From Paralichthys olivaceus (lineage: Eukaryota > Chordata > Actinopteri > Pleuronectiformes > Paralichthyidae), in NCBI RefSeq assembly GCF_024713975.1, contig NC_091096.1:4615501-4679500 (forward strand): DNA of 64,000 bases, given 5' to 3'. A program made the position numbers and the translations under genes. This document shows positions 20,292 to 57,217 of this stretch, piece after piece (the first letter of the stretch is position 1; every line of letters begins with the position of its first letter). The notes beneath the pieces were generated by a model that was given only the letters and a program-made list of their open reading frames with translations, was not told the origin of the DNA and ran no database searches.

Positions 20292-23374
<3,083 letters not shown>

Positions 23375-33200: not shown

Positions 33201-36200
33201 TTACAGGAAGCCCTGGGGCACCAGCTTCACCTCTCTTTCCATCAAAACCCATTTGACCCTAGAAAAAGTCATTTCTGCAGTTCAGTGTATAGATCATTAC
33301 TTAAACCTCACTGACTCTATACCTGCAGAAAAACGCAATCCGCAAAAGAATTGTTTGTTTTTTTCCACTTACAATGAGTCCCGGGTCACCTGGCTCTCCT
33401 CTCTCTCCTCTGTCTCCAGGAGGACCCTGGTTTCATACAGAAACAAATTAATTAAACAATCCGAAACACTGCTGACAAACAACACAACAAAAACGAGTCC
33501 ATGTGAGAAACTCACTCTGTCACCTTGGGGACCTGCAGGACCTTCTACCTTACTGTCATCCCCCTGTTCACCCTGAACAAGCAACACAGGAAAACACAAA
33601 CAATTGCGATCAGTGGTAGTTCCCCCAAAAGTCAGTGGTCTGCAAAATCAATGCATCTTTTGTTTCAGTATAACAATCGTCCACTCTCTTTCTGCATGAA
33701 CAGCAAAATATTACATGTGCTATTACCCACAATGATCCCATTTCACATAATGGTGCCAGTGTCTGTTCCAGGGTCTTTATGGAATTCATTAACCAAAAGC
33801 CACAAATGTGTGTATGATTTTAATAGTCATGTGTCGTGCATGTGTCAGTTTAATTCAAGGAAAGAAGAGGCCGACAGGCATCTAAAAGCAGGAGGGTGGT
33901 TATCAACTTCCAGGAATTGACAGTTACACAGATGAAAACCGTGGGAATGATGCATTTACCATAACCGTGATGGGGATATGTACTTATCTGCAGCATGTTT
34001 CAGTGTCAGGGTTACCTGGCTCTCAATTGAAAATCATAAATTTTGTAATTACCCGTATAATAGGGTGATATTGATTTAATTATAGAGCAGGCACAGCCAT
34101 TATTTTGAGGATATTGGCAAAGAGAATACAACAAACATTCACATCCAGATGGCTTCAGCCCAGGGACTTAAAAAGAATGCAAATTAGCGCCTCACTAAAC
34201 TCTGGTGCAGTGTGTTCTATCGTGTGCTGCTCCTGTCAAATAAACACAAATTATAGTGCTAATATCCCCAAAATAATGAGCAGGGGAGTCCAGGTGCTTG
34301 GCTAATTATATACATTTGACAGCGCTTAGTTAATTGGATGTGTCCGAGTTCTTATCATCGATCAAATTAGGGAGGAGTTGAGGAATCTTGCAAGGACAAC
34401 AGCACGGACAGAGGAGGCACTAAGTAGGGACACGACTGAAGTTTCCATGCATCAAACAAACTGACCATGTACTCAAAGTGCTGCCCCTGGAGCTCCTGTA
34501 GACACAGTCGCAGTGCAGACGGCGATTAGGAAAAGCAAATACGTTTGTGAATGTACCTTTTCACCTTTTGGTCCAGGTGGTCCCAATGAGCCCTGTGGTC
34601 CCATGTGACCCTGTGACAAGAAAACAAGTTTGTGACTGAATCTCATTTTAGAACTGTAATTAACTGTGCGTCAAACAATTTGATTTAACTTTAGTCTTAA
34701 ATGTGCAAATATCAGGTTCTAACACAGGAAGTCAGTCAAAATGAACAGCAACTTAAACATAGTAGCATCCGACAGTTAACACACAAAATGCAGGTTTAGT
34801 CTTTATCAGAGGCTGCACCAAACATTATCTACATCATCTAATAATGAATAATAACAATTATATTTAATAGAAAATAGACAAAGACTGAATACTAGAACAA
34901 GTTAAATGGCCTGGGTCACAGTTTTTAACATTTTTGATTTGATAGCAGCAGAGTTTTGGAAGTTCTTAACATCCTTCAAGGAAATGTATCACCCCATCAC
35001 TGAGATGGATTGCTTACCTCGTAACCTGATATGCCTGGATTTCCTTGTTGGCCCATTCTTCCTGGTGCCCCCTTGGGAAATTACGTACATATATTTAGCC
35101 CACATCCGCCAAACAGGCAATTAAGTCCTTCAATCATCCTGTTAAGAACTTACCACTGGTCCGATGGTGCCTCTCGCTCCCTTCTGTCCAACAAACCCCA
35201 TTTCTCCCTGCTCACCGGTTGGCCCGGTCTCTCCCAGGTGACCTTGGTGACCCTTGCTCCCCTGGAGAGAGGCCGTCAGTGAGCAGGTATGCAGTGAATC
35301 TACAAAACCTCCCCGAACAGCTGTGTGTGTGTGTTGTTTGACAATTTCAACCATTTAATACTGAACGTCTACTTGACGAGCAGTAGCTGACCTCGGTGTT
35401 TGACAGAGAACTATTCAACTCCTCGTACAGGAGGACAAACTCACAGGCATCTGAGAATAAAACGTGCATTTTCGCCTCGAGCAAGTGAACTGACAAACCT
35501 TTTGTCCTGGTTTTCCTCTTTCACCATGTTTGCCAGGTTTACCCTCCTGACCCTTGGAAAAAAATTGAACGGGGCTGTAAGTGGACAGAAAAAGTCTCCT
35601 TTTCATGGGAATTGAATTAAATGCAGAGTTAGCTGCTGAGACACTCACCCTCACACCCACCAGTCCAGGAGGCCCAAAAGGTCCTTCTTCTCCTTTCAGG
35701 CCAATTTCCCCCCGCTCTCCTTTGGCACCCTCTGGACCAGCTTCTCCCTTTTCACCCTGACACCAGCAGAACAAGTCTATAAGAAACAAGTGACTGTACA
35801 ACTGTGTAGGAGCCTGATGGGTTCTCCTCAGTAAACAAACACTGTAAATTTTACCAAATCTTTCTTGTCAAGATGCTTATACCAAACAGACACGTTTAGT
35901 GGGACGTCATGAATCTGAACATCAAAACATAATCTGATGAACACAACTACGGATCATGACAATGCTCTGATTTTCATTCTCCTATTAGTTCACAGTTAAA
36001 GCTGCAAATCTCTCTGGAGCTGCTGGACTCTGGTTGACTCTATTCTAATCCTCTGTGCCCCTGAGCTCACATTTGACCACCTTGTCCAAGCCAAGAGCTG
36101 CTTGTGGCTCAGTCTGTTAGTGGCCATCCTTCCAGCAGCCTGGCTCTGCCGAGTAGATCGGCTTTTTTCTGCTTTCTTTGTTTCTTTTTTTTATTTTTCT

Positions 36201-39200
36201 GTCACAATACTTGCCAGACAGCAGAGCTCTTAGAATAGTCACTCTATCTGTTTTCAACTTGGCGTCAACACAATGCAGCTCCAACTGTACAAAAGGGCAA
36301 AAAATACGCAACTAGCTCTAATGAGAATAAGCTTCTACAATAAACAGACAAGTTCATTGGCTTCACAGACAAATGGCTTCAGGACAGGGAGAAAAAATTA
36401 ATGTTGAAATGAGTGACAATGTGATTACTAGTCCCGAACAAACATTATTTTTTTCATTTACTGTGTCCCATGATGCATGTCTCTAATTTGCATTTACAGT
36501 TTCTTTTATTTTCATACTTGCCTTTGCAGCATCTGGTCCACTTGGTCCAGCCTCCCCATCGATGCCTGTCTCTCCCTGATAGACAAATATAAAAACATTA
36601 TGGATGCAAACCAGGGACATTGGACGTCAGTCACAGTTGGGGGTGCTGAGAGACAGTTTATATCATGACCTCATATTAAATGCAGAGCAGCAGCGCCAGA
36701 CAACAAACCTGACCACTAACTCACAGTATGTCAAAGCAGCATATTACAAAGTTCAATTGTGGACATTTCACACATGGAGTTTATTGTGTATTGTGTGTAT
36801 CTGAAGTCATTTCTAACTTTATTGAGCCTAAGTCCTGTTCTTCATTTGTGCATCAGAGAGGCCACATAGAAAATACACTGAATGTTCCTTCAATTAAAAA
36901 AATAATTATATTCAAAATCTTACTCCTGAAAATGTAATAAAATAAAGTGAACTTTTTTTCTTGCAGTAACACCCGTCGCAAGTAGGGGTGTAACTGCATC
37001 ATGTTTTTCCGACACAGGGACAGTAATCACAGCAAAAACATTCATGCATCAGGCACGAAGCAAAGCTTAAAAAACTCTTACTTTAAATGAATCAAAATTT
37101 TGAGTTGCAAGTGACTCGTCTACTTTTGAATATTATTGAAGGTTTGCCAGAATTCCCTGTGCCTCATTAACACTGAAAGAAAAGCATTGGATACTCACTC
37201 TCTGGCCAATCAGACCCTGTTCCCCAGTGTTGCCATGCAAACCGGTGGAGCCCTGCCAGGAGAAGACACATGATGTTACTGATGTGCGGCTTTTGTTTTT
37301 CTTTCCACTGCAGCTATTTATACCAGTTTCCCCTCAGTAATAAAGACAAGTATGTCTGCGTCCCAAACCTGGAGGTTGCAAAACAACATTTTCAATAAAG
37401 AAATAAAGAAAAAGGAGAAAAGAAACACAATCTAATTGATCGTCCACCTCAGTGCACAATAAGCTTTCTCAGTTTAATTTGCCACAACTTCAATTGGAAA
37501 ACTGGATTACGATTTCTGATTGGGCTTTGATAATCTCTATAAACAGATTTTTCAGAAGGAATATGATTTAAATCATATCTGAGAGGCCGGATACCTTCTG
37601 GTTTCCCTTTTATTGCAGTGTGACCAGTCATGTTTGAGTTGGCTTTGGTAGCTTCCTGGTAAACACGAACGAAATTTATATGCAGATAACTATCAATAGG
37701 AATTAGCCAAAATGTTGTGTGGACCGATAAAAAGCATCAGCGTTTGTGTTTTGTGTGGAAAAACGTTCAACTAGTGTGATTAAAGAAAGTAGTCAGACTG
37801 TCAACGGGTTATGACGAACGGGGTCCTGGCCCAGAAATCTGCTGTCTACATCAGAAGCCCCCGAAATATTGGCCGTTGTCCCCGGAGAAGTTAAATGTTT
37901 TTCTCCACAAAGTATGATTCAAATTCTCCGATCTTGCTCCCAGGACTGGAACACAGACATGGTTCCGTGAAGTGAGAGCCCACCACGACTACCATCACTA
38001 TACTACCAACACTTTACTAACGCAAAGGTTGTTGTAATCTTATCATCCAGCAGATCAATGGCTGAAACCAATAAAAAATTTCAATAGCATATAATCGTCT
38101 TCACCTTCTCCCCAGTTTCACCAGGCAGTCCTCTCTCTCCAGCCTTCCCTGGTGGACCCTGTCAGAAAACAGCCTTTACTTTTCAGCCCTAATGTAAAAT
38201 TCAGTGGGAGCTCTCACACCAGCCGTTTAATCAAACTTACCGTCGGCCCCATCTCCCCCAGAGGCCCGATCGTTCCCTGTGGCCCTGCTGGCCCCTGCGG
38301 TGACAGAAGAACAGGCGTCAATACCAAGGTTAAAAGAACTTTGCAATCTTGGACAACACCTCTGAAAGTGACGACAGAGGGGGAAAAATATGAAAAGAAA
38401 TAAGAACCAGCCGGAAAGTGTGGATTTGTGGAGATAAGTTAATCTGCAGGGCTAAGAGCTTTCAAAACACGGAGCCAAAGCTTCTGTAAGTGATGGAAAT
38501 GGGCCTGCTGTTATCAAGGCACATTCAGACTACAATACAGCTGCCTCTCCAGGAAGAGCAGGGTGTAAATCAAATTGTCTCAGACTCACTAAACTTCTCT
38601 GCTTGTGTCTGTGAAACTCAGGCAAAATAAAAGGAAAAAAAGAGGATGAGGTTGTTCGGGGTTTTTCGAGCAAGGCTGTGGGTTTTGAGGATAATATTTG
38701 AGGCTGAATAGAAGATGTCAAAGTGGACGTTCAGAGTTTATGTTCAAGGGGAAGAAGACGGGTGAACAGTAGGTGCTGGACATCATCATATATGAGACTA
38801 TACATCCACTGTGGGCTTCTGCAACTTCCAAAAATGTACATAGCTGCATCAGATAGAGTAAAAAATAATATTTCCATTCAGTAGTGGTTTGATAATGAAG
38901 GTTATTTTAAAATATGGAACCAAAATCATCAACTCACAGGCTCTCCTGCAATTCCTTTGGCTCCTGGAGGTCCCGAGGGTCCTTGAACACCCTGAAAATA
39001 ATACAGTTATTTATAACACACTTGATATTCAAACACACACCCACTAACAGAATACAGTGCACCACACAACTCTCTCCACTGTATCCACTACTGTTGCCCG
39101 GAAATGTCTCCACCCCAAAAAGATCCAGACAGACCTAAGTCAGACCTGTGTTTGCCCCCAATCACTTACTGGAAATCCCTTAGGCCCAGATTCTGCTGCC

Positions 39201-42200
39201 TCACCAAGCTTCCCCTGCAGCGTCACGACAGAAACAAAGAAGTGTCAGACAGGTTTTAATGGCGCTGTCCGAGTCTGATATCATCGGCATAAATAAATGG
39301 ACTTCATGAATGTAACATTTTAGTCTAAAGGACCAAATTAAGTCTCATTCACCACACACAGGGCATCTGTATGCTTTTCAAACAGCCTTCAGGGGCCACT
39401 CAGGGTTCAGTGTCCTGCCACAGGGCACTTCGACACGTGCACCGGGCTTCTTGTGGATAGCAGACGATCCGTTCTAACTTCAGAGCTACAGCTGCCCGAG
39501 TAGTTTTTAGTTTTGTGCATGCTCCGTGTCCCTCTCACGGTTTTATTACGCAAGAAAAATAATTTTGTTTGATTCATTATTTTAGCTGGAGTGGATCTGA
39601 GTAGATGGGTGGATCTATGATTATTCATTTATTTTTATTTCCTTCAACGTGTCAAGATAGGGTGATGGCCTTGGCGTAGGTATGTGCTCCCTGAGGGCCC
39701 TTCTCTTTTCCAATAATTAGCTGCTTTGCACAACTAGCTGATGCTGGAGTTTCACAGACCAGCTGAGGATGCACAAACATCTGGCAGTCAAAAATATAGA
39801 ATTCAAGAAAAACTCTTTCAGTATTGTTCTTGATTTATTAGCAGTTTTAATAGATGTGTGTCCTACTTGACCGTGCACTGTGTGGAAGAACAATGCAGCT
39901 AATATACTGCAAGAATGTTTCTCCACGACTGCTCTAATGAGACATTTCTCTCATTAGGACAAAAGTTTTGACATCATTTTACCGAGATTCTTTTTCTGCA
40001 GCCTACAGAGAGAATGACCAAATGCACTCAAACCAGAATCCTCCCTAAAGCTGCTAATAATGTCATTAAGGTTTTGAATGGAAAATAAAGAAGCCTGATT
40101 TTTCTTACCATCTCTCCAGGGAGGCCCAATTTTCCTGGTGGACCGTCGGGGCCCTGCGACGGAAAAAAACATCCAAATCAGTAAAACCGAGCTTTCTAAA
40201 ACCCCCAGAGTTAAATTGTTCCCGACTTCGAGGCACAACCAGCAACATCAATATTTCAGGACTCTTTGATTTAACGTTGCGTTGTTAGATTTGTAGTTAA
40301 CGAGTGTCCTCTGAAGATTCTTTAGATGTTAAAAATAGTTAATAATTACAGACTGCTGAACAAAGCTGCTTTGAAAAGTTATTTTTCCCTCCATTAAGAA
40401 TCTTGAGTCATTTTGTTTATCCTCGCTTTGCATGGGAGAGATTTGATGTGTGCAATTAGGAGGCTTAAGGCCAGACGTTGCTCAAAGGCAGTTTGGCATG
40501 GAAAGTAACATTATCAACAATTAGACACAAAATTGAACTCAACAAGCGTTTTATTAACTTTGACTTTTTCACCATGTGCTCACCTTTATTCCTGCGGAGC
40601 CTTTCTCCCCCACCGGGCCATCAGGACCCCTTGGACCCTGCACAAAGAGGTAAGTTGGCACTAATGAATAGCTTTGGAAAACCTGGCCTCTAATAGACCT
40701 GAGGCACATGTTGTTTAATCCATCAAGTCAGTGAATTTAGCCCAGTCAATCTCCATTTCTGTCATCTCCATTCAGTGCAGCCCGGGAGGCAGCTCTCTTT
40801 GTTTTATAGTGAACTTTGCATGTAACCACACTGCGGTGACACGATCAAAGATTGTGGCTGCTTTGCAAATACTTGGCATTTGGTGATTTAGCTCCGCGCT
40901 TTGCCCAATCCACACTGTGTGGACTTTGTCCCCCGTCTTTCCACCATCACACAGAGTGGCGTCGCCTGCACACTGGGGTTATTGTAAAGAAGCCTCGGGG
41001 AAAAGGTCACAAATCCTGTTGCTGATTCATCCTTCAGCTTTTTTAAAAGTGAATCGAACCTATACGCTGTCCGAAAACATTGAAGGACCCACGGCTGCTC
41101 ATGTAAAAGTGATCCGAGCAGAACAAGAGCAGAACACGTGCTCCTTCCTGTAGAAATCCTTAATGAACACACACACAGTGACTTAAAACTGTTACTGAGG
41201 AACAGCTATTGTATCCCTGTATTTGGCTTCATGTCACAATAGTGACATTCGTGTTTCTGTGTCATTTTCATATGTTGCCTGTTTTCGTCTGTGTTCTTAA
41301 ACGTATCAAAATGAAATAGAAATATATGAACCCAGTGGACACATGTGATTTCATAATCAGCTTATGTACAAGGGACTGCCACAGCATCATGGTTAAAAAA
41401 CCCTTAACGAGGGTTCCTGCTCCTAATTTCCTGCCAAAAGCGTTGTCAGTTAAGAGGTGTGTATCATGTGTTTCTTAAAACTAAAAAAGCAAAAGAAAGT
41501 ATGAATAAGAATAGAATATATTGCTTTTACTTCGTCCCATGGATCATTTTGAAATGTGTGTCCTAAGGAATAAAGCTTTAATCCACTTCTTTTTAAGGTA
41601 ATGTCACTATTTTAAATTGAAAAAACTGTGCACAGGAAAAGGTTATCACTGGTTATCACTGGTTTTCCCTATTCCAACTGTGAATTACTTTGTAATTAGG
41701 AGAACGGTGTTTAATCATCATGGTCTGAAAATCTAATTTCCAGAGCCTTGATGTAATTTTCCACTATTACACTTATTAAATATTGCATTTGAGACTGCCT
41801 GTAATATTAGGGGGGAGCTGTGTTAAACAAATCCAGAGAATGAAAAGCCTTAATTATACCGCTTATTCATGTTAGATCAATTATTCATTCAGTCCGATGA
41901 TCCTGCTGCGCTGGAATCACTGGAATTATCCCGAGCTCATGGCAGACACAGCAACGCACACACATTTCCACGTCCTGACACTCCAGGCTGTTTGTGCAGC
42001 ACCATGTTGGGACAAGCTGATTAACATATTATAACTCCCTTACTCCTACTAAAACATGATCTTATTCTACGTGTTGTGTCTGTGTAGAAGTCATGTAGAA
42101 AGATAAACGAGGTTACTGAGCATTCATCTTTGATGGTTGGATTTGAAACAGAAACAGTTCTTCACTTTATTCCACTGAGATGTTCTGCAATTATGAAATT

Positions 42201-45200
42201 TAAAAAAAATGAAACGGCGACGTTCGTGGCTGTGTGACACAGAAGTTAAATGCTGAAGCTGTGATGGCAACATCTGGGTGTAGACTGAACTGTTGTGTCG
42301 AATCATTTGTTAACACAGATTTCAGTTACTTGCCCCGATGCCTTTGGGCCCTCTGATGCCGATGGATCCTTGTGAACCAGGAGGCCCCTGAACGTGAGTG
42401 AAAAAAGGTTTGTTTTTAAAATGTATACCTTCATCGCACATAAAGCTGTGACGACGGTAAAGTTGTAAACTTACTGGGATCCCTTGTTGTCCACATGATC
42501 CCGTCTCTCCAGGTATTCCAGTGTGACCCTGACGGACACAACGTTACTTAAATGATAAAACTATATTATTCCAATACATCTTGAATTTGCTCTTAGATCT
42601 CTGACCTTGGATTAATCTTCGTATTGGACGAGTATTATTTAATCAGTCTCTCTTAACATATCACACCCCCTTTCCTTACGTATGCAGAATTGAACCCCCC
42701 CATGGTACGAGAGACGGGGTCCAGACTTACTCCTTACCATCGGCCCCCGTTCCCCTGGTGGCCCAGGAGTGCCTGTTTTCCCTCGATCCCCCTGAGGATT
42801 TAAAAGCAACAGTTAGAGAAACTCAACCTAAGTAAAGATGCAACTGAAGACTATTGTAGAATAGAATAAGAGAGAGCAGTACAAATGTACTTATGTTGGG
42901 TAATTGATTGACGTGATTAATCTACAAAATATGTTTATTTGATTGTCTTTACTTTTAACTTTGAAACATTCCAAAAAACTGCCAACCCATAAACAATGAA
43001 TTGATTATTGAATGTGCTGTAAATTGCTTTATTTTAGCACTAATCACATGCTAGATGGACAGAAAGAAATTCATCAGATCAAACTTGACGTTGCACGACA
43101 CCAGATCGTGACGCTAGCAGACCGTGACAAATTGCGACCGCGCTAACCTTTTCTCCGGCGATCCCCGTCTCTCCAGCAGGCCCAATAAAACCAGGCAGTC
43201 CCTGAAGGAGAGAGAACACGCTGTCATGACTGAGTCTTATTAGTTCTAGTGAAGTTATATTTCCCATAATGGGCTTCTCAGCTTTGGGGCCCAAACAAAA
43301 CTGACACAAGCACACACATGGACACACACTTAGCATCAAATAGAAATCAGCAGAAAGAGGGAGAAAAGCCTTTACCCTCTCGCCAAGCTTTCCGACCTCG
43401 CCGGTTATCCCAGTCTCGCCCTACAGCAAAGCAGCCAATTAGCATATCACAAACTTATTCATGCCTTTCGTTTTTAGTTCAAATCAGTCGAAATGTGCTC
43501 GGAGGCCTGTTCCCCTGTGGTAACGGAGGATTAACATCTAATTTACACATATTCAGATGATATATCATCATAAAACAGAACCAGGGAGAGAATGCTCAGT
43601 TATGGATGACAGTGGTTTGGCGGCGGATGTGCGACTGTTGGGTCTGACCTTGAGTCCATCTGGGCCCGTCAATCCAGGGAATCCCTGCCTCCCAGGTCTG
43701 CCCTGAACAAAAAGCAGAAATGACACATGGAAGTGTACCGCAGCTCCACACACACACACAACAATAAAGTCTCCATGTGTCCTGAAGAAGGTGCAGTGTG
43801 TGATTCCGCCCGTGCCTCGAGAGGCCGAGGCACAGAACCAACCAACAATTGGTGCCAAAACAACAACAACAACTACAAAAAACTTAATTATCCAGAAAAC
43901 AAAGAGTTGTTTTCAGCATCAAAGCATCTTATCATCACTGAAGCCACCGGGTCATTTGTGTTTGTTTGCAGTAATCACCTGTGGGTTCCACTGCTGGGAA
44001 ATAACAGACTGGAAGTTAACCATTGCAAAAGATAGTGTCATTGGTGAAGTCTTCTCTGTTGGTTAGCGTGGGATGACTCCAAACAAACACTTTTTTTGGA
44101 CCGAGAGAGTCGCTGAGGACTTTTATTTATGATGTAAAGCAGCTCGCTGACAATGTCAATTATAAAACGGCACAAGTTTGCCCCTCGTGGCTTCTTCATC
44201 CACCACGTTCCTTCTTCAGATCATAAACTGTAGATAAAGATACGAGTTTCAGCTTCCTTCCAACATCCAGAGGTGAAGCCATAATATACATTGACGTCAC
44301 CTGAGCAGTTACAATCAGAGGAGGGAGCTGCGGTATCAAGGTCCTGCTGATACACATGATGATCTAAACCAAAGAGTGTTTACAAGGATGGATGATGTGA
44401 CTGCTTCCCAAAAGTGAGGCCAAATCATCTGACTCACCCCCTCGTGGGTGTCTACAGTGGGGGGTCATGTTCTCCACCTCCTCCATTTTAGCAGATGGGT
44501 CAGGGACCAAACTAAGATAATGGTTGGTTCTTATCACACTGATGTTTGTTCAAGTGTTCATGTTTCCATCGAGTTTTTAAACACTTCATAAGCAGCACTG
44601 CGCAGTACTATTATCTCCAAATGACATTGAAAGGGATAATTTGGCTTCATTTTTGGAAGGAAGTTGGTATTTACAGTCTGTGATTCAGATACTGAAGACT
44701 CCCGACATAAATCTATATAAGGTGGAGAGATATTTGAAAAACAAACCATAAAAGGAACCAGTTGATTTATGTTATAATACCTCTATCACACGATTGACCT
44801 CCCTGGAAACTACTTCATAATTCAAGTATTTTATGAATCAATCATCACATTAAACTTTATCTGACAGCTTTATACTGGACATTGACAGACAGCTGCTTTG
44901 ACTTCCTTTACTGCGCACGTGTGTGGTTTCTTCTTTATGATAGAAAAGGGCAGCAAATAACAATTTAGAACAATAGAGGAGATCAGTCAGCCAACAGACT
45001 GTCTGTCCATGTGAGACCATAGACTGCAGATGAGACGCATGGTGCTATTGTGTAGAATGTATTGTGGTGTGGTGTGTGTAAAGAGGACGCTGCATGATTA
45101 TGGTTCTGGGGTGTTTTCTGGGTTCCTGGGTTTATCCACTCACCTCGAATCCAGCAGGTCCAGCTGGCCCGACCGGTCCCTCATCACCCTGAAAAATAAA

Positions 45201-48200
45201 ATTATAGCAGAAGATCAAGGGGAAGAGAAACGTCTTTGGCTCAACACACCAAAGTCAAACCTACCTGAAGTCCCAGTGTTCCTCTAGGGCCTGGCAAACC
45301 GCTAAACCCTTGCTTTCCCTGTGGATGACGAAACCAAAAATAAACTTTCATTTCTCAAACTTGACGCTTCATGTCTAAGTTGTAATATCCACTCTGCTGA
45401 CCTTGGGTCCTTCAAGGCCGTTTTGACCTGGTGGGCCAATGTCCCCTGGAAAGCCCTGACAGAAGATAAACCAAAACTTCATCATCACACACTTTTATAC
45501 TTTCCTGCACACTACAACACATTTATAGACAATATAAACATCTTATCAAAATATTAGTAAATGAAATCTGTCGTACCTCTGGGCCAGGGGGGCCAGGTAA
45601 ACCATCAGGGCCCTTTTCCCCAGGTTTGCCCTAAGACATATCACAAAGAATCAATAATATAATAATAATTTCAACATCATATAACATAACTTTTAAGAAT
45701 CCTGTTTACATTATATATATTATTGCTATTTATTTTTGATTTCCTTTTGATTCTTTTGAATCTTTTTTTTGCATGCAGGGAACATAATCAAGTAAAAATG
45801 AATCTCACACGACCCTGAAAATAACAAGAAACCTTACATCATACCATCTTAATTCAAAGAAATGTTCAGGACATTATGTCGAAGTTACAAGGAACCAAAC
45901 CATTGAAGCTCTGAGCGGAGGAATGCGAGGAGCACAGGTGGGAACAGCTGCGATCAAGTAGAAGGTCAAGCAAGCAAGGGAGCAGGTTTTCCCAGGAATC
46001 TCAAAGCAGATCAACGAGCACTCAACATATTAAGGACACTTAGGAGCACATGTGCCAACTGTAGCGCTGACTGACGGATTAGTCGTGACGCTCGAGGAGC
46101 ACTTGGACTTGAAATTGCCCGTGTCCTGCTCTTTCAGGGGGTTGTTTGTGGTTATTGAGCTTAAAATTCTTCGCCTGAAATTCCCCCTAAGCACGAGTCA
46201 CTGAAATCTGCTTTTCAATACATTTGAAGAATTCTACTCATTTTTATTCCTGAGCGGTTTTTAAACCGACTGCATTGTTAAGAGTTTTTCGAGCAATTTC
46301 AACACACGGAAGCAGCTAAAGCAGAAAATAAACTGTTTAGCACAGTGCCTTATCTGCTGAGAACACAGACGCAACCAAAGCAGTTAAGCATGAAAAGAAG
46401 TTGCTAGATGTAAAGAGTATAGTACATATACATATCACAGAGTGAAAGTGCAGTCTGATCATGGATTAACTACATGTAGTGTGATGTTGTTATATATCTT
46501 TCTCTCTGCTGGTGTTTGAAAGTAGCCTACCTGTGGTCCAGGTTTTCCACGAGGTCCAGCTAACCCAGGTGAGCCACGAATACCCTGTCACATAAAAGGT
46601 TGGTCATAAAACAAATCCCATAAATCAAATGTGGGTTTGATACAGAAACACAACAAAAACATCTCTAAATGAAAAATCCACAAGCCTTTAAATATCTGGA
46701 GATTCTCCTGAAACTATCCAGAGGGGCTGTATGTGAGAACGTTTTCTGCAGTTTTTCATATGTGAAAGACAAAGAATGAGATTATTTTAAAGGTTCATGT
46801 CTGAAACCAGCTCATGTCTCATTAACCCCAGTGGAGACCGAGATACCGAACAAGGCCCTGCTCTGGTCACTTAACCAAGGACACTTTGGCATACAGGAGA
46901 AGTAGGGAATCGAACCACCAAAACCTCTTCTACCACCAGAGCCCACACCGGCATACACATACCTTGTCCCCCTGGAATCCACTCTCCCCAGGCTGTCCTG
47001 GCAAGCCATCTTCCCCCTGGGAAAATGCAATGATAAATGACAGAATGTTAGCAGAACATTTTTCAATCTACATGCACCACAGGAGTAATGAGTCATATAT
47101 TACACGTCTGTGCTGTGCCCTCCAGCAGTCATGGATTTTACAAGGTTAGGGGTCTAAGAAAGACGTATGCAGATCACCTTATCACCTTTCAGTCCTGCGT
47201 CCCCTGGGTTTCCTGGTACTCCCTTTAAAGCAAAAAGAGAGAAACGAGCATTAACATCATGTTAACTGTGGTTCACCTTGTGTCAGGCTGTGAGAAGAAG
47301 ATGTGACCAGGCTGTGGAAGAGGACACAGAGTTTACAAAATCCAAAAATAGCAAAGCGTTTGAAGCTGTTTATGAGCAACTCACTATGGTCACATCCATA
47401 TCACAACCAGAGACACACAACATGTCCACTTTGTTTACCTTGAGTCCTGGTGGTCCTGTTAAGCCCATAATGCCAAGAGGGCCCATGTCTCCCTGTCACC
47501 AACAACAAACACACACATACACTTACTAGAATGAATAAGCAGATAAAACTAAAACTACAAAAAATACACGCTCACAGTCACAGCTGCTTGTGTTAGCAAT
47601 AACTAGATATTATAAGATTTGATTTATACTTGTGTTTGCTATATATCTGTTTTTTGTATATCTCCGTTGTTAAAAGACAATACTCTGTGGCCTGTAAGAA
47701 TTTGGACGGACAAGAGAACCAACCAGTGTTACATGCATTAGGTTAACAGCGTTAAAATGAATGGTCTTCCAGGATTAATCCATTATCTTCAGACTACCTG
47801 CGAAAACCTGTCTTCACAAAACGTTTGTTCACCACTTTGTTTTCCCCAAACTAGACAGACACTATGAAGTCTGAGTTATTTTATACATGTTCTGAACATT
47901 TACTTGGAGTTTGCAGCGGTTTGCACATCACAAATCAACGAGCAACAAAACACATGGTCTAAAATAGTGTGTATCGCCCCCTGGTGGCCGACATCATATG
48001 TTAAGTGTTAAGTTTGGTTTTAATTACTTATTTTATATTCTGGCTTTATTTTTGTATAATGATATGTATAATGATCTTTACATATGATTGTTCATATTTC
48101 ATATGAGTTTCAAATGTGCATTCTGCATTGAGGCTGGTGTACACATGATTTGACCAAGATTGCCTTTGCCTACAGCTTTACGAAAAAACTAATCTATATG

Positions 48201-51200
48201 AAAACTACCTGATTAGAGAATAAAAGATTATCTAGATGCCCTGACATTTGATGCCAGCTGTTGGCAGTGTCCAGTTTGTGATGCTCAGTGCTGCAGACAC
48301 GTTTCAGCAGCAATATTAAAGTATTAAGGCTTGAAATCCTGGACCAGTTCTCATAATCTGCAACAGAGTTGAGTTTTCTGAGCTGAATGTCCAAATAGAA
48401 AGATGTTGACAAATAGCAAGTAAGGAATCAAGGTTTCTCACGCAGCCTACTCGTTTCCAGAGGGGATAAAAAAGGGAATCAAGGACACCGAGTATAAACT
48501 ATAAATCACAAAATTGAAAAACTTTAGAAGCAATGAGAGATATACAACACTCACAATAAGACCAGGGACTCCATGTGGCCCAGGAGCTCCCAGTTCACCC
48601 TGAGAGGAAGAGAGAGAGATGCAGAAAAGATGCAACATGAGCAGAGGGAGATAGAGGTGTTGAACTGCGGCAGAGGAGGAGGAGCGTTCACTACGTTTCC
48701 TCATTCTGTTTGTTTACTCGTTTGCTTGTGCAGTGATAGCAGAGTAATGTGTTTCTCCAGGCAGTTTAGCATACTGAGTGAGCACTTGGCTCTTGACACA
48801 GAGGCTTGTTGTCCAAGCGATGCATCCCGCGGCCACATGCCGAGTCCACATCCTCTCCAAACCACGCAACCAACGGAGAGATGGATGACACTCGGCCCAG
48901 TGTGGCCTTCCTGTCGCCGCCTCCATTTCGTTGTGAATGAAAGGAGATGAAATTCAGCCAAATGGAACATCCCCTCGTCCCTCTGCTGGGAGAGGAAATG
49001 AGGCCCGGAGGAGGCTCTCGGGAGGTCAGCCAATCACAATCTAACCCCGACCCTGTCAATCACGAGCAGTGTAGGTCAAACTAAAGAAAGAGGAGAGGCG
49101 AGTGAAAGTGCTGATGCTGCCCTCGTATCAGTATGGGTGATGATGGGTGAGTGAGTTGCTGCGTGACTGCATGGATATGCTCCACAGTCTTGTGCAGTAA
49201 TAAAATGTTCCTTCTTCAGAGTAAAGCTCTAACTTTGGAAAAAAGATATTTTTCAGACACTGGTCTAACGGGACATAGGCTGAAGAAAGAAGTGAAGAAG
49301 TGCTGAAGTAGACGTTTTTTACTGTCACTTGATCTTTATAAGTGTATTTTTCATCTCTTCTGAGGGTTAAGTCTGAAACCTTTGCCAAAAGTGAACAGTG
49401 TGTGCATGTATCTGTATCTGGTCACTTACTGGGTTTCCATCAGGCCCAGGAGGTCCCCTCTCTCCAAAGTCCCCAGGAAACCCCTGAACACACAAACAAA
49501 CAGAGGACAGTCATGTAACCAGAGAGGGAGCTGAATTTCTATCATGTTCATTCAGTTCAAACATCTATTCTGATGTTGAATTTTTATTTAGACATCACAC
49601 TATTTGTCAGGGGAGTTATCACACCAAACACAAGGGATCGTGTTTCCAAAAACTGACGTCTGCAGAGCAAAGCCAAGCAAATTTCACCAAACGCGATCCT
49701 GCCGCTTCATTCCTGAGAGACCAGCAGGAAATTCCATGGCTGAGTGTTTCCGAGCGGCCGAGTGTCTGCTTGTGCACGTGCTCGGCCCTCAGCAGCCCGC
49801 CGACCAAACCCCCAGGACTCGCCTAAACGGCTGAATAAAGCTGTTTGGCCCTGGAACTGCTGACTGCGTCGTTTTTCTCTTTTTTGCATGGTGCTCGTAA
49901 TTCTATTAGAGGGGCAGAACAAGAGGCGTGATGCAGTCGAGAGGCCACATGCTCAACATGTGCTTGTCAGTGTGCCAAGGTCAATGTGCAACCCACCGCG
50001 ACATCACGGCTCAGCACTCGCCCACAGAGAGTCAGCTCCACGGTTAGAGAAATGATAAATAGCAGAATGAGGATTGGATCGCTCGTTCTCTGTCTGCACA
50101 CGAGCAGAGAGCACGGAGACCTCGAGAGATGGCAGAGATGGGATTGTTTGTGTGGCAGCCTGCCTCTTCAGAGCGTTAGGCAAATGTGGATAAAGTAATA
50201 AGCGGTAATTGGTGCAACATGAAGCCCACAGGAAATGTGGAAAAACCTGCTTCTTTCCAAAAATGTCAATAGATGACTGGTTCTGATCAGAAACACATGC
50301 AAGTCTTTGTTCTCATATCGACAGCAGCGTTCAGCGAGTTCGGCAAAACCATTCATCATCAGGTCTGTCCAATGGAAGCCCTGCCATTCTGATCAGTGCA
50401 AGAAATACTAGATACTAAAGGCTACTTTGGTTAAGTCCTTAAGAAGTTAATCATGTGAATCTCTGCTGGAACAAACTCTTTCTCTTCTCTTTTACTGCTG
50501 ACTCAGGACAGAAGAAAAGCTTTTCACCACAGAGAAAAGGCTTGCTCATGGGCTGGCTATTACAAGCATACCTTTGGACCACAGACTGTGTCACAGACAA
50601 TTACTTCATCATAATATCAAAATGAAAACAACCAGACCGAACCTGGGGAAAATACCAGATTTACATAAGCACTTATGTGCAGTATTCATGTTTTCCATGT
50701 AAGCCTGGAAGGACAGGAAATTTACTTCCAGGCGCCGATGACGATAGACTTCCCTGGTCTGTGGGCAAGGGCTCTGAAGCCAAACCCACAACTGACACAT
50801 CATGTTATCATAAATCCAATGGAAAACAAGCACAGTAATAAACACTATATAACATAGAATGTTTCCTAATCACCTTCAGCCACAGAAAATGAATCATACA
50901 GGATTTATAGAAAAGCCATTGTTGACTTTAATATGATGCCAGTAACTTTGTAAAGAGGAACAGACTGAGAATTTGAATGTAATCCGCTGACACAGGAATA
51001 TTTGTGTTTCCAGTACATTCAGTTCAATGTTTAGGGAGTAGTTTTCTCCCTAAATCCCTAAAAAATCCATATAATAATCCCTATGGCATCATTGTGCCGC
51101 AGCGTGGAAGTTACCACAGCTTTTCTTCACAGATTTACGACTGAGGCCAGGGGAGGCTTCAGTGAGAACTGGAGTATCTGTCAGAGTAATGGTCAAATAA

Positions 51201-54200
51201 TACACTTTAAAGTAGCTCTGCGCCACAGGAGGAGTCCATAGATCAAGACAAAACATCCTCACTTTCATTAGGCTGCATTAAAAATGTTTGTCTAAGAAAA
51301 GTATGTTGAGAGAAAACTTTACCGGCCTACCCATCTTGCCCTTCTTCCCATGAGTGCCAGGAATACCCTGGAAACAGAAGAGAAAACAAGAGCTGAGAAA
51401 CAGGAAGAGAAAACTGGATAAGGAAGTAAAGGAGGAATAAAAGTGCATAACGTCAGAACAGAAATTATGCGATGATAAGACTGAATAGCTTTAGTTACAC
51501 CAGCGGCCCTGTGAAGCTACGATGCTTCTTAAATAACAGGAAACAAGTGTTCGGATGATGTAACAATGGAGAAAACAACCACTAAGGTTTTTACCACTAA
51601 TGGTGGCACAAATGGAAATACTCCACATTTCAAACTCAGATCTCAAGGTTCAGGTTCACGTTCTCAGCTATCATCGGACAAAGGTTTACTCGTTAGCCTC
51701 AACCCCTGTCTGTTAGTTCACAAATGTGTAGTAGATCATTTTGCTGAGATTTTCACCCATTTCCCAGGTAATTAATTAAACTGGCTTATTAATAGGTTGG
51801 ATATTTACAAGACTGTGCAGCTTGATTGAAGTTCAGAGGATTATTGGGCATTGGTGGAGGAATGTGCTATACTGAGTGTCATCTTATTAAAGCTATATGA
51901 GACAAATTGTGATTTGTGAATATGGGCTATACAAATACATTTTGATTGTTTGATTGATCGACCCCGACAGAAAACACTGAGGCTCTTGAAACAGCTGGTT
52001 TGAAGTCCTGCACTTAATTTCCAGATGTTATATGAGACCACAATGCCCAAGATTTGCATAATGCTCAATGGTAAAGTGAGAAAAGAGGCCGACTTTTGTT
52101 ACATAGACTAGAAGTGGTTGACCAATCACATCAGAGTGTGTCTGCTGGCCAATCAGAGCAGGAGGAAAGTGATGTGTTTGTAATAACACATGTAAAAATG
52201 ATCAAACTAAACATGTCTCCTTTAATCTCGGCTGTTCTCTGAGCAATGTACAGTAAATGTTCAATATGAGGCTGTAGCATATTGAAGCCCCGAGTTCTTT
52301 ACCAAACTGAATCCAAAACTTTTTACCCAAGAGTTGGCGGACCAGACTGACTGATACACTGATCGTGGAAATATGTGGTGCCAGTAGGCTGGGGTACCAA
52401 GATACTCAAGAGTCTGTTGTGATCCACTACCTGAAAGTTTCATATTGACTCTGTCTGACTTTAAGTAAGTTTAAATCTACCTCGGACATTATAACCTTAT
52501 CCAAGACAGGCGAGACTTGGAGGTGAGGGTTGTCTGTTCTCCCAGGTTTGATCCAATACAGCATGAGGCAGCTTGCTCTACTTATTACTTATAAAAGTGA
52601 TTTGGGGAAATGTGCCTGGAGTACACAAAAAAATGCAGTCTATTTCTATTTCATCAATTTGGCCCATGGACAGTCATATAATTCAACCCTGTAGGCATTT
52701 ACTCTCAAAGCCACTAATACTCACTCTCTCGCCATTAGGACCGGGAAGACCAAAAAGCCCAGGGATGCCGATGTGACCCTGAAGAGATGAATAAAAGATG
52801 GAATGGAGGAGCACATGAGGCAAAGACAGATGAGAGAGCAAAGGAAGACGGACAAGAGGGCACAGTGAGACTGGGCAGACATGATGGGGCTGGACAGTAG
52901 ATGTCAACAACACCAACACACGTGTAATTATCTATACTAAGACTTGAGCGATGATACTTTGATCTGATCACAGCACTGCAGGCTGTTTGCTTCAGATGAG
53001 TGGTCATGATGAGCCAAGCCTTGAGGCAAGTGTATATGCCCATGGACTGCATGGTGCTGGCTTCCACGATGTAGTCCAAGGGCACATACCCACACATCAG
53101 GGATCTCTGAAGATCTCGCTGCCGTTCCTGCTCAGTGGAAGAAGAAGACAAGAAAACCTGGACAAGAGGCAGTAAGGGGAAATTAGAACGACATTACATG
53201 AGGTGGTACCTTCTGAATGTGTCGTGGCTGCAGTCGGCAGCAGAGCGATATAGTTTTATGATATTTGCCCAAGCATGGAAATGACTTGAAGACAGCCAGA
53301 GTTAATTGCTCCTACGGTGCATTAAATATATATTAACAAAACCATCTGCCATCAACTATCATCCTGGAGTCAACAGGCGTGGATGAGTGGTGTTTATGAA
53401 ACTGGCCTTATTAATATACCCACACTGCTTAGGTAAGTCACTGAGCGTGTAGTTTACAGTTTTAACTAACCCACAACTGGTTAGGTAAATAATTGAGCAT
53501 GCATTTTACAGTTTGAACCAGCCCATACTGGTCAGGTAATTCACTGAGCGTACATTTCACAGTGTGTTTTAAGAAATGTTTTTGCGGCACAGAGAAGAAA
53601 CCTGCTTCTCTCCACTGTGGCCTTCAGTGTAAGGATGCAGGAGGGTGTCTTTCTCCTCTAATGCTTCACGTTATATGACTCATACAATGTACAGTTTCAA
53701 AGCACATTTTATTACCACAACACAAACACACTTCCATAAAAATGTTAGCTAAAGCTGCATTCTCCAGCATCTACTTACCCTGACTCCTTTCGGCCCCATT
53801 TTTCCTACAGGCCCAGGAAAACCCTAAATAAAAGAGACAGCAAAACATATTTCTGTGGTTACAAACAGCGGCAGGGCTTCAGTAACGATGCTGCTTGAGT
53901 CCGTAATTAGAAAATCTGAGAACAAAATGTTTTGATTTGATCTAAACATCCTCACGACCTGATGATAAGCGTCGGCTTCTTAAAATACTAATTAGTATCT
54001 TGGCTGACATTTGCGGCGTTAATACTTCAGCAGCATTCAACTTCTCAGAGTCGCTGCCAGCAAATCCGCCGGTGCAGGAAACATCTTCCTCCAACTACGA
54101 AGATCAACTCCCGCCCCCCCCCCCCCCCCCCCCCAGCAGAAGTGCCGCATTTTGACATGCACCTACAGCCCCGATGATTCACAGTGTACAGATGGTAGGG

Positions 54201-57200
54201 GGTGCTAAAACCTAATCCATCACACACCACTAAGTGTCTGCAGGGATCACAGCTCAGACATAGTAAGTGCGCTAAAGCACAGAGGCAAACGTCAAGACCC
54301 GTGCCTGAACTCTGTGTTATCATAAACATTCAGGGAGCGTGAGCGAGCGACTGAGCTGTTGCCCAGCTGTTTTTAAAAGTCTAAATTTGCTTAAAGCTAA
54401 AAGGAAACAGATTTTAAATGCAGAGGAACTCTAATGTTCCCCAGGTTTAACTTCTTCTATGCACTATTCCTCGAAGTGCAGCGATTGGAAGGACACAGGA
54501 AGCTTGTTTGTCCCTGAGGAGCTGTGGCATTAGTCACACTTTTATTACCTTTTCTTTCTCCGGGGTAGTGCTTACTATGGAAACCTTTTGACATTTTATT
54601 TCCTCGCTGGACCACGGGCATCCATCGCTGAAATTCCACCACAGGTGCTTCAACAGTTTAGAGCTGTTGTCACTCTTTCTTTTCTTTCATTCAGCTGCGA
54701 CAAACTTTTTATTTGGATTTACCAAATTAGGTTTTTTCCAGGCTGAGATGCCCGTGGCTGGGATTCATTTTTTCTTTTTGTCAGCATCCAATATCTTTAA
54801 ATGTGATTTTCCGGCCACAGACACGACACAAAAGGATTCAGTGTTTCCCCTATAATTCCCATTTCATTCCTCAATCTGACAGTAAACAAAAATTACCAGA
54901 TGAAAATTTGATTTATTGAAAGGTCACAATCACCCGTATATTTTCAAAAAAGCTGAATTCAGAATTAAGGATATTACCAACCTCCATTTATTGTTATATC
55001 ATGGTGTTTGTTTCTGTGTTTGTATGTGTCTCTCGCTCTCTTGTGTGTGTGTGTGTGTGTACGTGTGTGTGTGTGTGTCTATGTGGCTCTAATCGACCAG
55101 CACCGCAACACTAGATTTACTGCACCTGCCTGCCAGGATAGCCTTTGGCCCCCGGGCTTCCATCATCTCCCAGTTCACCCTGTGGAGAGAAAGATGGAAC
55201 CGAAATCAGCACTAGAGGGGGGCGAGAGACTCAGTCACGGAAAAGGAAGGAAGGAGAAACTGAAGGATGGAGGGAAGGAAGTAGTATTCTTCAGGAAATA
55301 TACTTTTATCCACACATGGAGCCTCGCCGATTGGAACGGAAGGGAGACGGTATAAGGACCGAATCCATAAAGTCATAAACAGCACTCAGGTATGGAAGAA
55401 TCTACATCTCTCGTCTTTTCTGTAAAGAGCTTTTGTTTAGTCGAGTCGCTGCAGCTTAAGGAGAGAGACGCCACTGCAGCCGTCGCCACTCGAACCGTTC
55501 AATTAATCCTGCAGTAGGTGCTGTTACAATGTGGTCGAGCCACAGGCTGTTAAGACAACTGCTGTGAGCACAGTCCTCAATATGTTTATCCTCATCAAAA
55601 GCACAGAGCAACTCGTGAGTCATTTCTTCCTTGTGGTGAGAAGACGCAGCCAAACGCAGCATCCAACCGGGAGGAAGGTTTAATTCTACATGTATGGGGA
55701 GAGTAAAACAGGATTAGTTAGTGAAAGACATGCAAGAAATTATAGAATGAATTTGAAGCCAACATCTGGCAACAGGTTCTGCATTTTCTTGTTTTTATGG
55801 AAGAACTGGTAAATGTGTGTTTTATCAAAAGTGTTGGAGAGTTCTAGTGAATGGCCAGAGAGAATTTTTAGTAAAAGCAGCTGCATAAAAGTTATAGAAT
55901 AGAAGCAATTTTGGCATTTTCAAGAAATATTCATCTTTAATAAAACAAATCAGGCACATGAAGAGTGCTAACATCTATGAAAAGATTAAATTCGGTGCAA
56001 ATCTGGAAAATTATCCAGATTTTGTGAATCAAAATAAGCATTTTAACTTATTTATGTATTCAATAGTATTGACTTACTATGCTGAAACAAATATTCATTT
56101 CACCTATATCAGAGAGAAGATATTTTGCCTGTGTTCAACGCAGTGTAGTTTGCGGAAAAAGTCCAGATAGTCTATGTATCTGATCTCAATACATGTAAAT
56201 GCAATATGTGCGCACTCTGACCGCGCAAGTTGTAAATTTGTTTATTTTTGTGGCCAAAGTTAAAGGTGAAATTTGCCTGATCTGCTTTTTTATTTCTTAT
56301 TCTGTGTCCAGCCTATTAACACATATTACTCAGAATATTAGGAACACCTCTCTACATATTGCAGTCAATTCCACTATTCCACTGATCAACAGTTGGTGGC
56401 AGTAACACGTTAATAAACATAGCAAGCGGCAGCAAAAGGCAAGATAGAAAACCACTAGCCTGTGTAGATATTTTTAATCTGACTTGCTTACGAAGGAGGA
56501 GTGTGGTCACCACATCTGCACGTTAAACCATGTCCCAATGTCTCCGAAAGAAAAAGACTGGATCATCTCTTTAGAGGAGACAGGAAAAGTTTTCTGCTTT
56601 TCCTCAATGTGACACAGCACATTCTTTTCAGAGACAGAGATACACAAGATTTGAATCAGGGAGGAGGAAGAGGAGGAGGAGGAATGAGCCGGAGTGTCCA
56701 AACTTTGTAGCCCACTTGCACTGCTGCCAAAATATCTCTCTCACTATTTCCCCGCTGAAGACTCCCAAATGACTAACGTGTCTTCTTCTCTCCCATCACC
56801 CCCCTTTTTTTAACGTCCCAAAGTCTCTGTGTTAATATATTCTCTGCCATTTCCTCCTCTTCTCCTATTGTGTAACTATAAATGGACACACACACACACA
56901 CACGCACACAAACAGCATGTGCACTGGATTCAGACAACGTGGTGGGACGTACAAGAAATGGGGGAGGGACCAAACTAATGATTTTACAGTTGTTTTTTTG
57001 ATGGTATATTTACTTTTCAGAAAATCCTCATGACTGTTTTTAATTCTTATTTTAAAATTCACACTCTCACCTCAAACACTAGCAGTTACATGTTACACTT
57101 ATTGAACTAAGGGGGAAAAAAAGGTCAGATCTATTGCAAAGTGAAGTGATGAATAAAAAGTGGAATACTCACAGGTTCACCTGGGAGACCGGAGGGACCA

Positions 57201-57217
57201 TGAGGACCTTTTTGTCC
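25011..57217 (-). CDS. col27a1: Collagen type XXVII alpha 1 chain, 3' part (54 exons; 5' end beyond the window)
   Basis: COL27A1 is a fibrillar collagen of cartilage and developing skeletal tissue. I trace 54 exons on the minus strand from 57217-57173 to 25157-25011, totalling 3459 coding bases (1152 aa): about 907 residues of Gly-X-Y helix, a short junction and the C-propeptide. Helix exons all start with an intact Gly codon in phase 0, mostly of 54 or 45 bases with five of 108. The C-propeptide sequence ([51 protein letters not shown], end [11 protein letters not shown]) is type XXVII rather than type I, II, V or XXIV. mir-455 lies in an intron, as in human. The signal peptide, TSPN domain and variable region are missing because they lie past 64000. 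Fish have two paralogs (col27a1a, col27a1b); this one is not assigned. Confidence 0.95.
25744..26115 (-). mobile_element. Degenerate Tc1/mariner transposon fragment
   Basis: The left end CACTATATGGACAAAAGTAT resembles the terminal repeat of a very common fish Tc1/mariner-like element. On the minus strand, positions 25877-25830 read [17 protein letters not shown], the region around the last acidic residue of the DDE catalytic triad. Further right, minus-strand blocks match the preceding transposase portion but with stops and shifts. The element is short and inactive. It lies in the col27a1 intron between 25611 and 26901. Confidence 0.7.
27652..29098 (-). CDS. col27a1: col27a1 exons for the end of the triple helix and the C-telopeptide-like junction
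   Basis: Exons 29098-29036 (63 b), 28888-28835 (54), 28732-28697 (36), 28182-28165 (an 18-base microexon, GLQGPR), 28038-28003 (36, ending GPRGPPGPP), 27874-27848 (27, GLSSSTLSL) and 27717-27652 (66, [20 protein letters not shown]). The helix ends with the 36-base exon; the next two encode the non-helical junction before the C-propeptide. All are flanked by AG and GT and keep phase 0. The two smallest exons are the least certain individually but are required for spacing. Confidence 0.85.
29155..29450. mobile_element. Fish interspersed repeat (non-autonomous, class uncertain)
   Basis: The phrases GATGCCATCTATTGGTTTG, AACTGCCATTTCGTGTTGAAG, GGCACTTAGGCCATGTTGG and GGTCACTAGGTGGTG match a short repeat that I recall as abundant in percomorph genomes. 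Terminal repeats were not defined. It lies in the col27a1 intron between 29098 and 31029. Confidence 0.45.
29451..31028. other. col27a1: Remainder of a large col27a1 intron
   Basis: AT-rich intronic sequence without Gly-X-Y exons, RNA genes or recognised repeats. Confidence 0.5.
31029..36575 (-). CDS. col27a1: col27a1 triple-helix exons, 3' block
   Basis: Fifteen helix exons, highest coordinate first: 36575-36522, 35756-35649, 35552-35499, 35261-35154, 35071-35018, 34610-34557, 33572-33516, 33426-33373, 33258-33205, 33105-33052, 32924-32871, 32717-32610, 32527-32420, 31288-31181 and 31082-31029. Sizes are 54 or 108 except the 57-base exon at 33516. Three exons break the Gly-X-Y register or lose a Gly: 36522 (PDAAK), 33516 (DDSKVEG) and 31181 (KQADLG). 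The exon ending at 36522 uses a GC donor. Several acceptors end AAG rather than CAG. Confidence 0.92.
37199..43702 (-). CDS. col27a1: col27a1 triple-helix exons, middle block
   Basis: Thirteen helix exons: 43702-43649, 43420-43376, 43201-43148, 42791-42738, 42528-42475, 42387-42334, 40637-40584, 40153-40109, 39214-39170, 38991-38938, 38294-38241, 38158-38105 and 37252-37199, all 54 or 45 bases. Exon 42475 encodes a cysteine inside the helix (GSCGQQG). Exon 42334 ends at a GC donor. Exon 39170 has Ala where Gly is expected (GEAAESG). The intron 40638-42333 (1.7 kb) contains no further helix exon that I could see. Confidence 0.92.
44220..44760. mobile_element. Fish interspersed repeat (class uncertain)
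   Basis: Blocks such as CACCCCCTCGTGGGTGTCTAC, GGGGGGTCATGTTCTCCACC, TTTTTGGAAGGAAGTTGGTA and ACATAAATCTATATAAGG match a dispersed element I recall from percomorph introns. It occupies most of the 1.4-kb col27a1 intron between exons 43649 and 45144. The consensus and boundaries are from memory and approximate. Confidence 0.4.
45144..57217 (-). CDS. col27a1: col27a1 triple-helix exons, 5' block within the window
   Basis: Fifteen helix exons: 57217-57173, 55179-55126, 53823-53779, 52778-52725, 51367-51323, 49483-49430, 48599-48555, 47492-47439, 47222-47178, 47016-46963, 46584-46531, 45630-45577, 45455-45402, 45318-45265 and 45188-45144. Each is 54 or 45 bases and keeps perfect Gly-X-Y. By comparison with the human gene as I remember it, 57173-57217 would be exon 8. 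Introns here are longer (up to 2 kb) and hold mir-455 and repeats. Confidence 0.92.
46826..46958 (-). mobile_element. tRNA-derived SINE fragment beside a col27a1 exon
   Basis: On the minus strand the element has GTGGTTCGATTCCC, an RNA polymerase III B box, followed by CCAAAGTGTCCTTGGTTAAG. That order is typical of a widespread fish tRNA SINE, which usually reads GTGTCCTTGGGCAAGACACTGAACCCC. The copy is diverged. It begins only a few bases after the splice donor of exon 46963-47016. Confidence 0.55.
47973..47992 (-). promoter_or_regulatory. CTCF-like binding site in a col27a1 intron
   Basis: The plus strand reads ATCGCCCCCTGGTGGCCGAC, so the minus strand reads GGCCACCAGGGGGCG, the core of the CTCF consensus. 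It lies in the intron between exons 47439 and 48555. Such cores also occur inside some repeats, and binding is not shown by sequence. Confidence 0.4.
53008..53103 (-). ncRNA. mir455: mir-455 microRNA hairpin in a col27a1 intron
   Basis: The minus strand carries the whole mir-455 precursor. The 5p arm is at 53088-53067, starting TATGTGCCC and differing by one base from human as I recall it. The 3p arm is at 53050-53030, starting GCAGTCCATGGGC. They are separated by a loop around AAGCCAGCACC. The arms pair through UAUGUGCCC-UUGGACU with AGUCCA-UGGGCAUAUA, leaving only a U-U mismatch and a G-U pair. Both seeds (ATGTGCC for 5p, CAGTCCA for 3p) are intact. It shares the sense strand of its host gene, in the intron between exons 53779-53823 and 52725-52778, matching human intron 10. 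mir-455 is known as a cartilage microRNA co-expressed with COL27A1 under SOX9. Confidence 0.95.
53418..53569. repeat. 51-bp minisatellite, three diverged copies
   Basis: Three tandem units start at 53418, 53469 and 53520 with a constant 51-base period. Shared blocks are CCCA-ACTG-T-AGGTAA, followed by TGAGC and then TTTACAGTTT. The copies differ at several positions. They lie about 315 bases upstream (in transcription sense) of mir-455, in the same intron. Confidence 0.85.
54114..54134. repeat. C21 homopolymer
   Basis: Twenty-one consecutive C in a col27a1 intron. Its true length is unreliable in most sequencing data. Confidence 0.9.
55043..55080. repeat. (GT)n microsatellite in a col27a1 intron
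   Basis: GT units with one AC interruption, 46 bases below the lower boundary of exon 55126-55179, that is just past its donor in transcription sense. Confidence 0.9.

Follow-up and report, generated by a model that had tools for sequence, protein, structure and literature searches.

Does the intronic hairpin of a collagen gene on contig NC_091096.1 of Paralichthys olivaceus belong to the mir-455 family, from which strand is it read, and does it occupy the same intron as in mammals? These points were addressed in a single stretch of 64,000 nucleotides, called the window here.

Identity, strand and fold of the hairpin

The whole window was searched by cmscan with Rfam 15. At gathering thresholds the sole match was mir-455 (RF00709), on the minus strand from 53102 to 53019, scoring 113.3 bits where the gathering cut-off is 70, at E 1.3e-26; the covariance model was covered end to end (model positions 1-84 of 84). 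An earlier sequence-only reading had placed a mir-455 hairpin at 53008..53103 and had named Rfam as one check on it; the hairpin was borne out over the full length of the family model.

53019..53102, minus strand: mir-455 precursor hairpin (full-length match to Rfam RF00709)
53067..53088, minus strand: miR-455-5p arm (placed by sequence and coordinates; pairing at 19 of 22 bases)
53030..53050, minus strand: miR-455-3p arm (sole match in the window at <= 3 mismatches; 18 of 21 bases paired)

Folding of the 96-base segment 53008-53103 gave -39.7 kcal/mol on the minus strand (z -3.04; 5 of 200 shuffles as stable or more so), a stable hairpin as that reading had expected, and -42.5 kcal/mol on the plus strand (z -3.80; 0 of 200 shuffles as stable). 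When 96-nt segments were tiled over both strands of the whole window, 8 of 3,994 folded at -39.7 or below, namely the mir-455 segment on each of its strands and six segments at five other places. Since both strands fold well, folding does not give the strand of the hairpin, and since the fold is good without being unique, identity and strand rest on the Rfam match. Folding alone as proof of mir-455 was dropped, the antisense and the six strand-segments at five places being equally stable or better.

Against the human MIR455 precursor, 88 of 96 positions agreed and 8 differed. Six ORFs of at least 20 aa overlapped 53008-53103, four on the minus and two on the plus strand, so that open frames do cover the hairpin on both strands as the sequence-only reading had said; the longest of those over the segment (138 aa) gave no Pfam match. 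No inverted repeat of at least 12 was found around the hairpin in the repeat scan, probably because of mismatches in the stem. A scan for the mir-455 core pattern in viral and genome contig collections, aimed at stray vertebrate DNA, returned 0 matches.

Mature arms

Arm limits were set as in the family; they are the same as the ones read earlier from the letters, 53067-53088 and 53030-53050, both of which proved exact. Even with 3 mismatches allowed, the window held the 3p string at a single place, and none of 100 shuffles contained it. Both arms were paired in one duplex, with a predicted 3' overhang of 3 nt rather than 2. By comparison with the human sequences, the 3p arm was identical to miR-455-3p and the sole change in either mature arm fell at 5p position 9, outside the seed. 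A CNNC motif is expected about 16-18 nt downstream of the 3p arm, and some microRNAs do without it; here, CNNC started at +4, +19, +27 and +32 after the 3p arm, +19 being the closest to that distance.

Position 17 of the 5p arm is A. Position 17 of miR-455 is reported as edited in mammals and birds, and bony-fish miR-455 is reported to be edited as well (PMC4197820); we take the edited position to be one of the 5p arm. A zebrafish miR-455-family read, as printed (PMC2684549), has GTATGTGCCCTTGGACTACAT in common with the 5p arm here and differs from it at the 3' end, which is ATT in the read and ATCG in this arm.

Exon model of the host gene

A fibrillar collagen gene hosts the hairpin, and both lie on the minus strand. 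Scanning for Gly-X-Y coding gave a ladder of phase-0 minus-strand exons, mostly of 54, 45 and 108 nt, and collagen exons with AG/GT splice sites flank the hairpin on both sides on that strand. The hairpin lies in an intron of 1,000 nt, with 676 nt upstream and 240 nt downstream of it. Exon numbers are those of the human register described below.

28003..57217, minus strand: col27a1 exons 8 to 54 as modelled (47 exons; Gly-X-Y with splice sites)
53779..53823, minus strand: modelled col27a1 exon 10, 45 nt, Gly-X-Y (exon scan)
52779..53778, minus strand: host intron of 1,000 nt, GT...AG, numbered 10 by the human register (splice sites and register test)
52725..52778, minus strand: modelled col27a1 exon 11, 54 nt, Gly-X-Y (exon scan)
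25011..27318, minus strand: C-propeptide-coding stretch with COLFI pieces (Pfam and frames)

Exon 8 (57217) is the first exon of the model, earlier exons and exons 55 and 56 not having been located. Exons 31, 36, 42 and 49 came from relaxing the Gly rule or from visual inspection of the frames, and exon 9 from the first scan only. A gene of 61 exons should have 51 of them downstream of the hairpin; 49 are accounted for here, as exons 11-54 (44 exons) and five C-terminal coding pieces. Two collagen exons on the minus strand, 28 (42334-42387) and 36 (36522-36575), have GC instead of GT donors.

COLFI (PF01410) was matched by four of five C-terminal peptide queries (E 3.2e-8, 8.1e-12, 1.5e-6 and 1.6e-8); the fifth, taken from a different frame in which stops were written as X, gave no match at all. 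The COLFI C-terminus of type XXVII collagen is in this way also found in the host. The last exon, at 25157-25011 with the stop included, codes for 48 residues after a CTTTCAG acceptor, and 48 is the number of residues left after Lys1812 in the human protein of 1,860 residues.

Three minor features were seen along the gene. The hairpin intron contains, upstream of the hairpin, a tandem array at 53418-53563 (52-nt unit, 2.8 copies, 78% matches). Minus-strand frames at 25700-26140, between C-propeptide coding pieces, resemble a broken Tc1/mariner transposase. The 2.5 kb past the stop codon hold one 7mer-m8 site for the 3p arm (24914) and two for the 5p arm (24592 and 23366), uncontrolled counts that carry no claim of host self-targeting.

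Register of the exons and number of the intron

For human COL27A1 (NM_032888.4), introns are printed after c.2619 (intron 17), c.2673 (intron 18) and c.3249, and acceptors before c.3556 and c.4261 (PMC12956644); a deletion of exons 38-60 is given as c.3718_5436 (PMC8105406). Each of the 47 exon ends of the model was taken in turn as c.2619, and c.2673, 3249, 3555, 3717 and 4260 were then scored for falling on exon ends. One register agreed with all five anchors, one with four and three with three, the others with fewer. The length fit had been noticed before the test, which is accordingly a check of a match already seen, and c.4260 is the weakest anchor, fitting only with 57 nt for exon 42, a point also noticed beforehand.

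In the register with five of five, the exon ending at c.3717 is numbered 37, as in human, and the exon that follows the hairpin is number 11; this being the sole such register, the hairpin lies in intron 10. The four-of-five register would equate human exon 17, 18 codons in length (PMC12956644), with an exon of 45 nt, and it misses c.3717. Further positions agree with the chosen register. Exon 8 starts at c.2125 in the model, in agreement with c.2089 printed in exon 7 (mouse equivalent); exon 19 spans c.2674-2727, in agreement with the published c.2683 in exon 19; and the published Gly codon c.3988 is the first codon of modelled exon 42 (PMC12956644). Phase-0 Gly-X-Y exons are held in a common register with human COL27A1 at five of five published boundaries, and this register and the COLFI pieces point to col27a1 as the host.

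Mouse miR-455 is stated to lie in Col27a1 intron 10 (PMC8260725; PMC2965114). A wider listing of COL27A1 as the miR-455 host gives introns 5-7 and 10 in human, 7 and 10 in mouse and 18 in chicken, numbers that depend on the transcript (PMC3675212). Intron 10 and the strand of the host gene, the two features expected of MIR455 in COL27A1, recur here. The sequence-only reading had put the hairpin on the sense strand of col27a1, cited intron 10 and taken the pairing of host and microRNA to have survived the split between fish and tetrapods. Its strand agrees with the Rfam match and the collagen exons, both on the minus strand; its intron with the five human anchors in one of 47 registers and with mouse intron 10 in print; and the pairing, from the Rfam match and the intron 10 register, is conserved, as was to be expected.

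The mir-455/col27a1 pairing found here is already known in kind, an ordinary and expected orthologue. An explicit statement of col27a1 as the host of fish mir-455 was not found in the article passages searched, which is a weak negative. The locus is one more for the known conserved pairing of miR-455 and collagen XXVII, and the exon count adds that the exact intron, beyond the host gene, is common with mammals. Use of the same intron is in keeping with an old co-regulation of miR-455 and collagen XXVII; the understanding of the mir-455/col27a1 system is unchanged.

Proposed expression and alternative explanations

The explanation that we hold with very high confidence is that of a mir-455 orthologue within intron 10 of a col27a1 gene, probably expressed and processed in the standard way. 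The family, the strand, both arms, the intron and the exon register are read from the sequence, and transcription, processing, tissue and targets are inferred. In Paralichthys olivaceus, mir-455 and col27a1 would share a minus-strand transcript; Drosha and Dicer would cut the intronic hairpin to release miR-455-5p and miR-455-3p; both arms could load Argonaute and repress target mRNAs; and the main site of action would be host-expressing cells of cartilage and notochord. Counting against this are the 3-nt predicted overhang, the slightly better antisense fold, a nearest CNNC at +19 and the two miR-455 forms in print for zebrafish (PMC2684549).

Published data on this course come from mouse and zebrafish. 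Both miR-455 arms are reported at about equal abundance in mouse chondrocytes, where control of miR-455 by Sox9 has been suggested, and miR-455 knockout in mouse left Col27a1 expression without significant change (PMC8260725). Pri-miR-455 and Col27a1 are induced together in mouse macrophages (PMC2965114). In zebrafish, notochord and cartilage are sites of col27a1a and col27a1b expression (PMC2794549), and Dre-miR-455 is represented by 41 reads, with the star strand also seen (PMC2684549).

The hairpin might instead be a decayed, unprocessed copy of mir-455, for instance where col27a1 is duplicated and the second gene does the work. Zebrafish has two such genes, col27a1a and col27a1b (PMC2794549), and two forms of miR-455 are in print for that fish, as two miR-455-like reads (PMC2684549); the host helix here has, moreover, four breaks in Gly-X-Y (listed below). 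Set against these is an Rfam match of full length, well above the cut-off, and arms that differ from the human ones by nothing in 3p and by one base outside the seed in 5p, where drift would be expected of a dead copy. We consider decay very improbable. That the hairpin arose by chance, or that a functional microRNA lies on the plus strand, would accord with the better plus-strand fold (-42.5 kcal/mol) and with the six other strand-segments as stable in the window; the Rfam match, however, is limited to the minus strand (E 1.3e-26) and the host gene is read on that strand, so that we give this reading next to no weight.

Breaks in the collagen helix were found in four exons, 31, 36, 42 and 49.

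39170-39214, minus strand: Gly-X-Y break, exon 31 (exon model)
36522-36575, minus strand: Gly-X-Y break GPDAAK, exon 36 (exon model)
33516-33572, minus strand: Gly-X-Y break, exon 42 (exon model)
31181-31288, minus strand: Gly-X-Y break GKQADLG, exon 49 (exon model)

Two interruptions are described for the human protein and a third for zebrafish col27a1b (PMC2794549), so that the four here compare with two in human COL27A1 and three in zebrafish col27a1b. The host could with four breaks be a b-type duplicate. That it is a duplicate col27a1 with an eroding helix and an almost unchanged mir-455 in intron 10, kept partly as a carrier of the microRNA, is a speculative extension that we consider unlikely.

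Other genes in the window

LRRC8A, a subunit of the volume-regulated anion channel, was recognized at 9271-11774 on the plus strand, the best PDB matches reaching 1442 bits against <= 986 for chains whose name gives LRRC8C or LRRC8D only; its protein carries on in another frame at about 11463-11774, probably past an intron. The start of a short-chain dehydrogenase-like gene lies at 20443-20769 on the plus strand (PF00106, E 2.3e-8) and runs into a CA-repeat tract.
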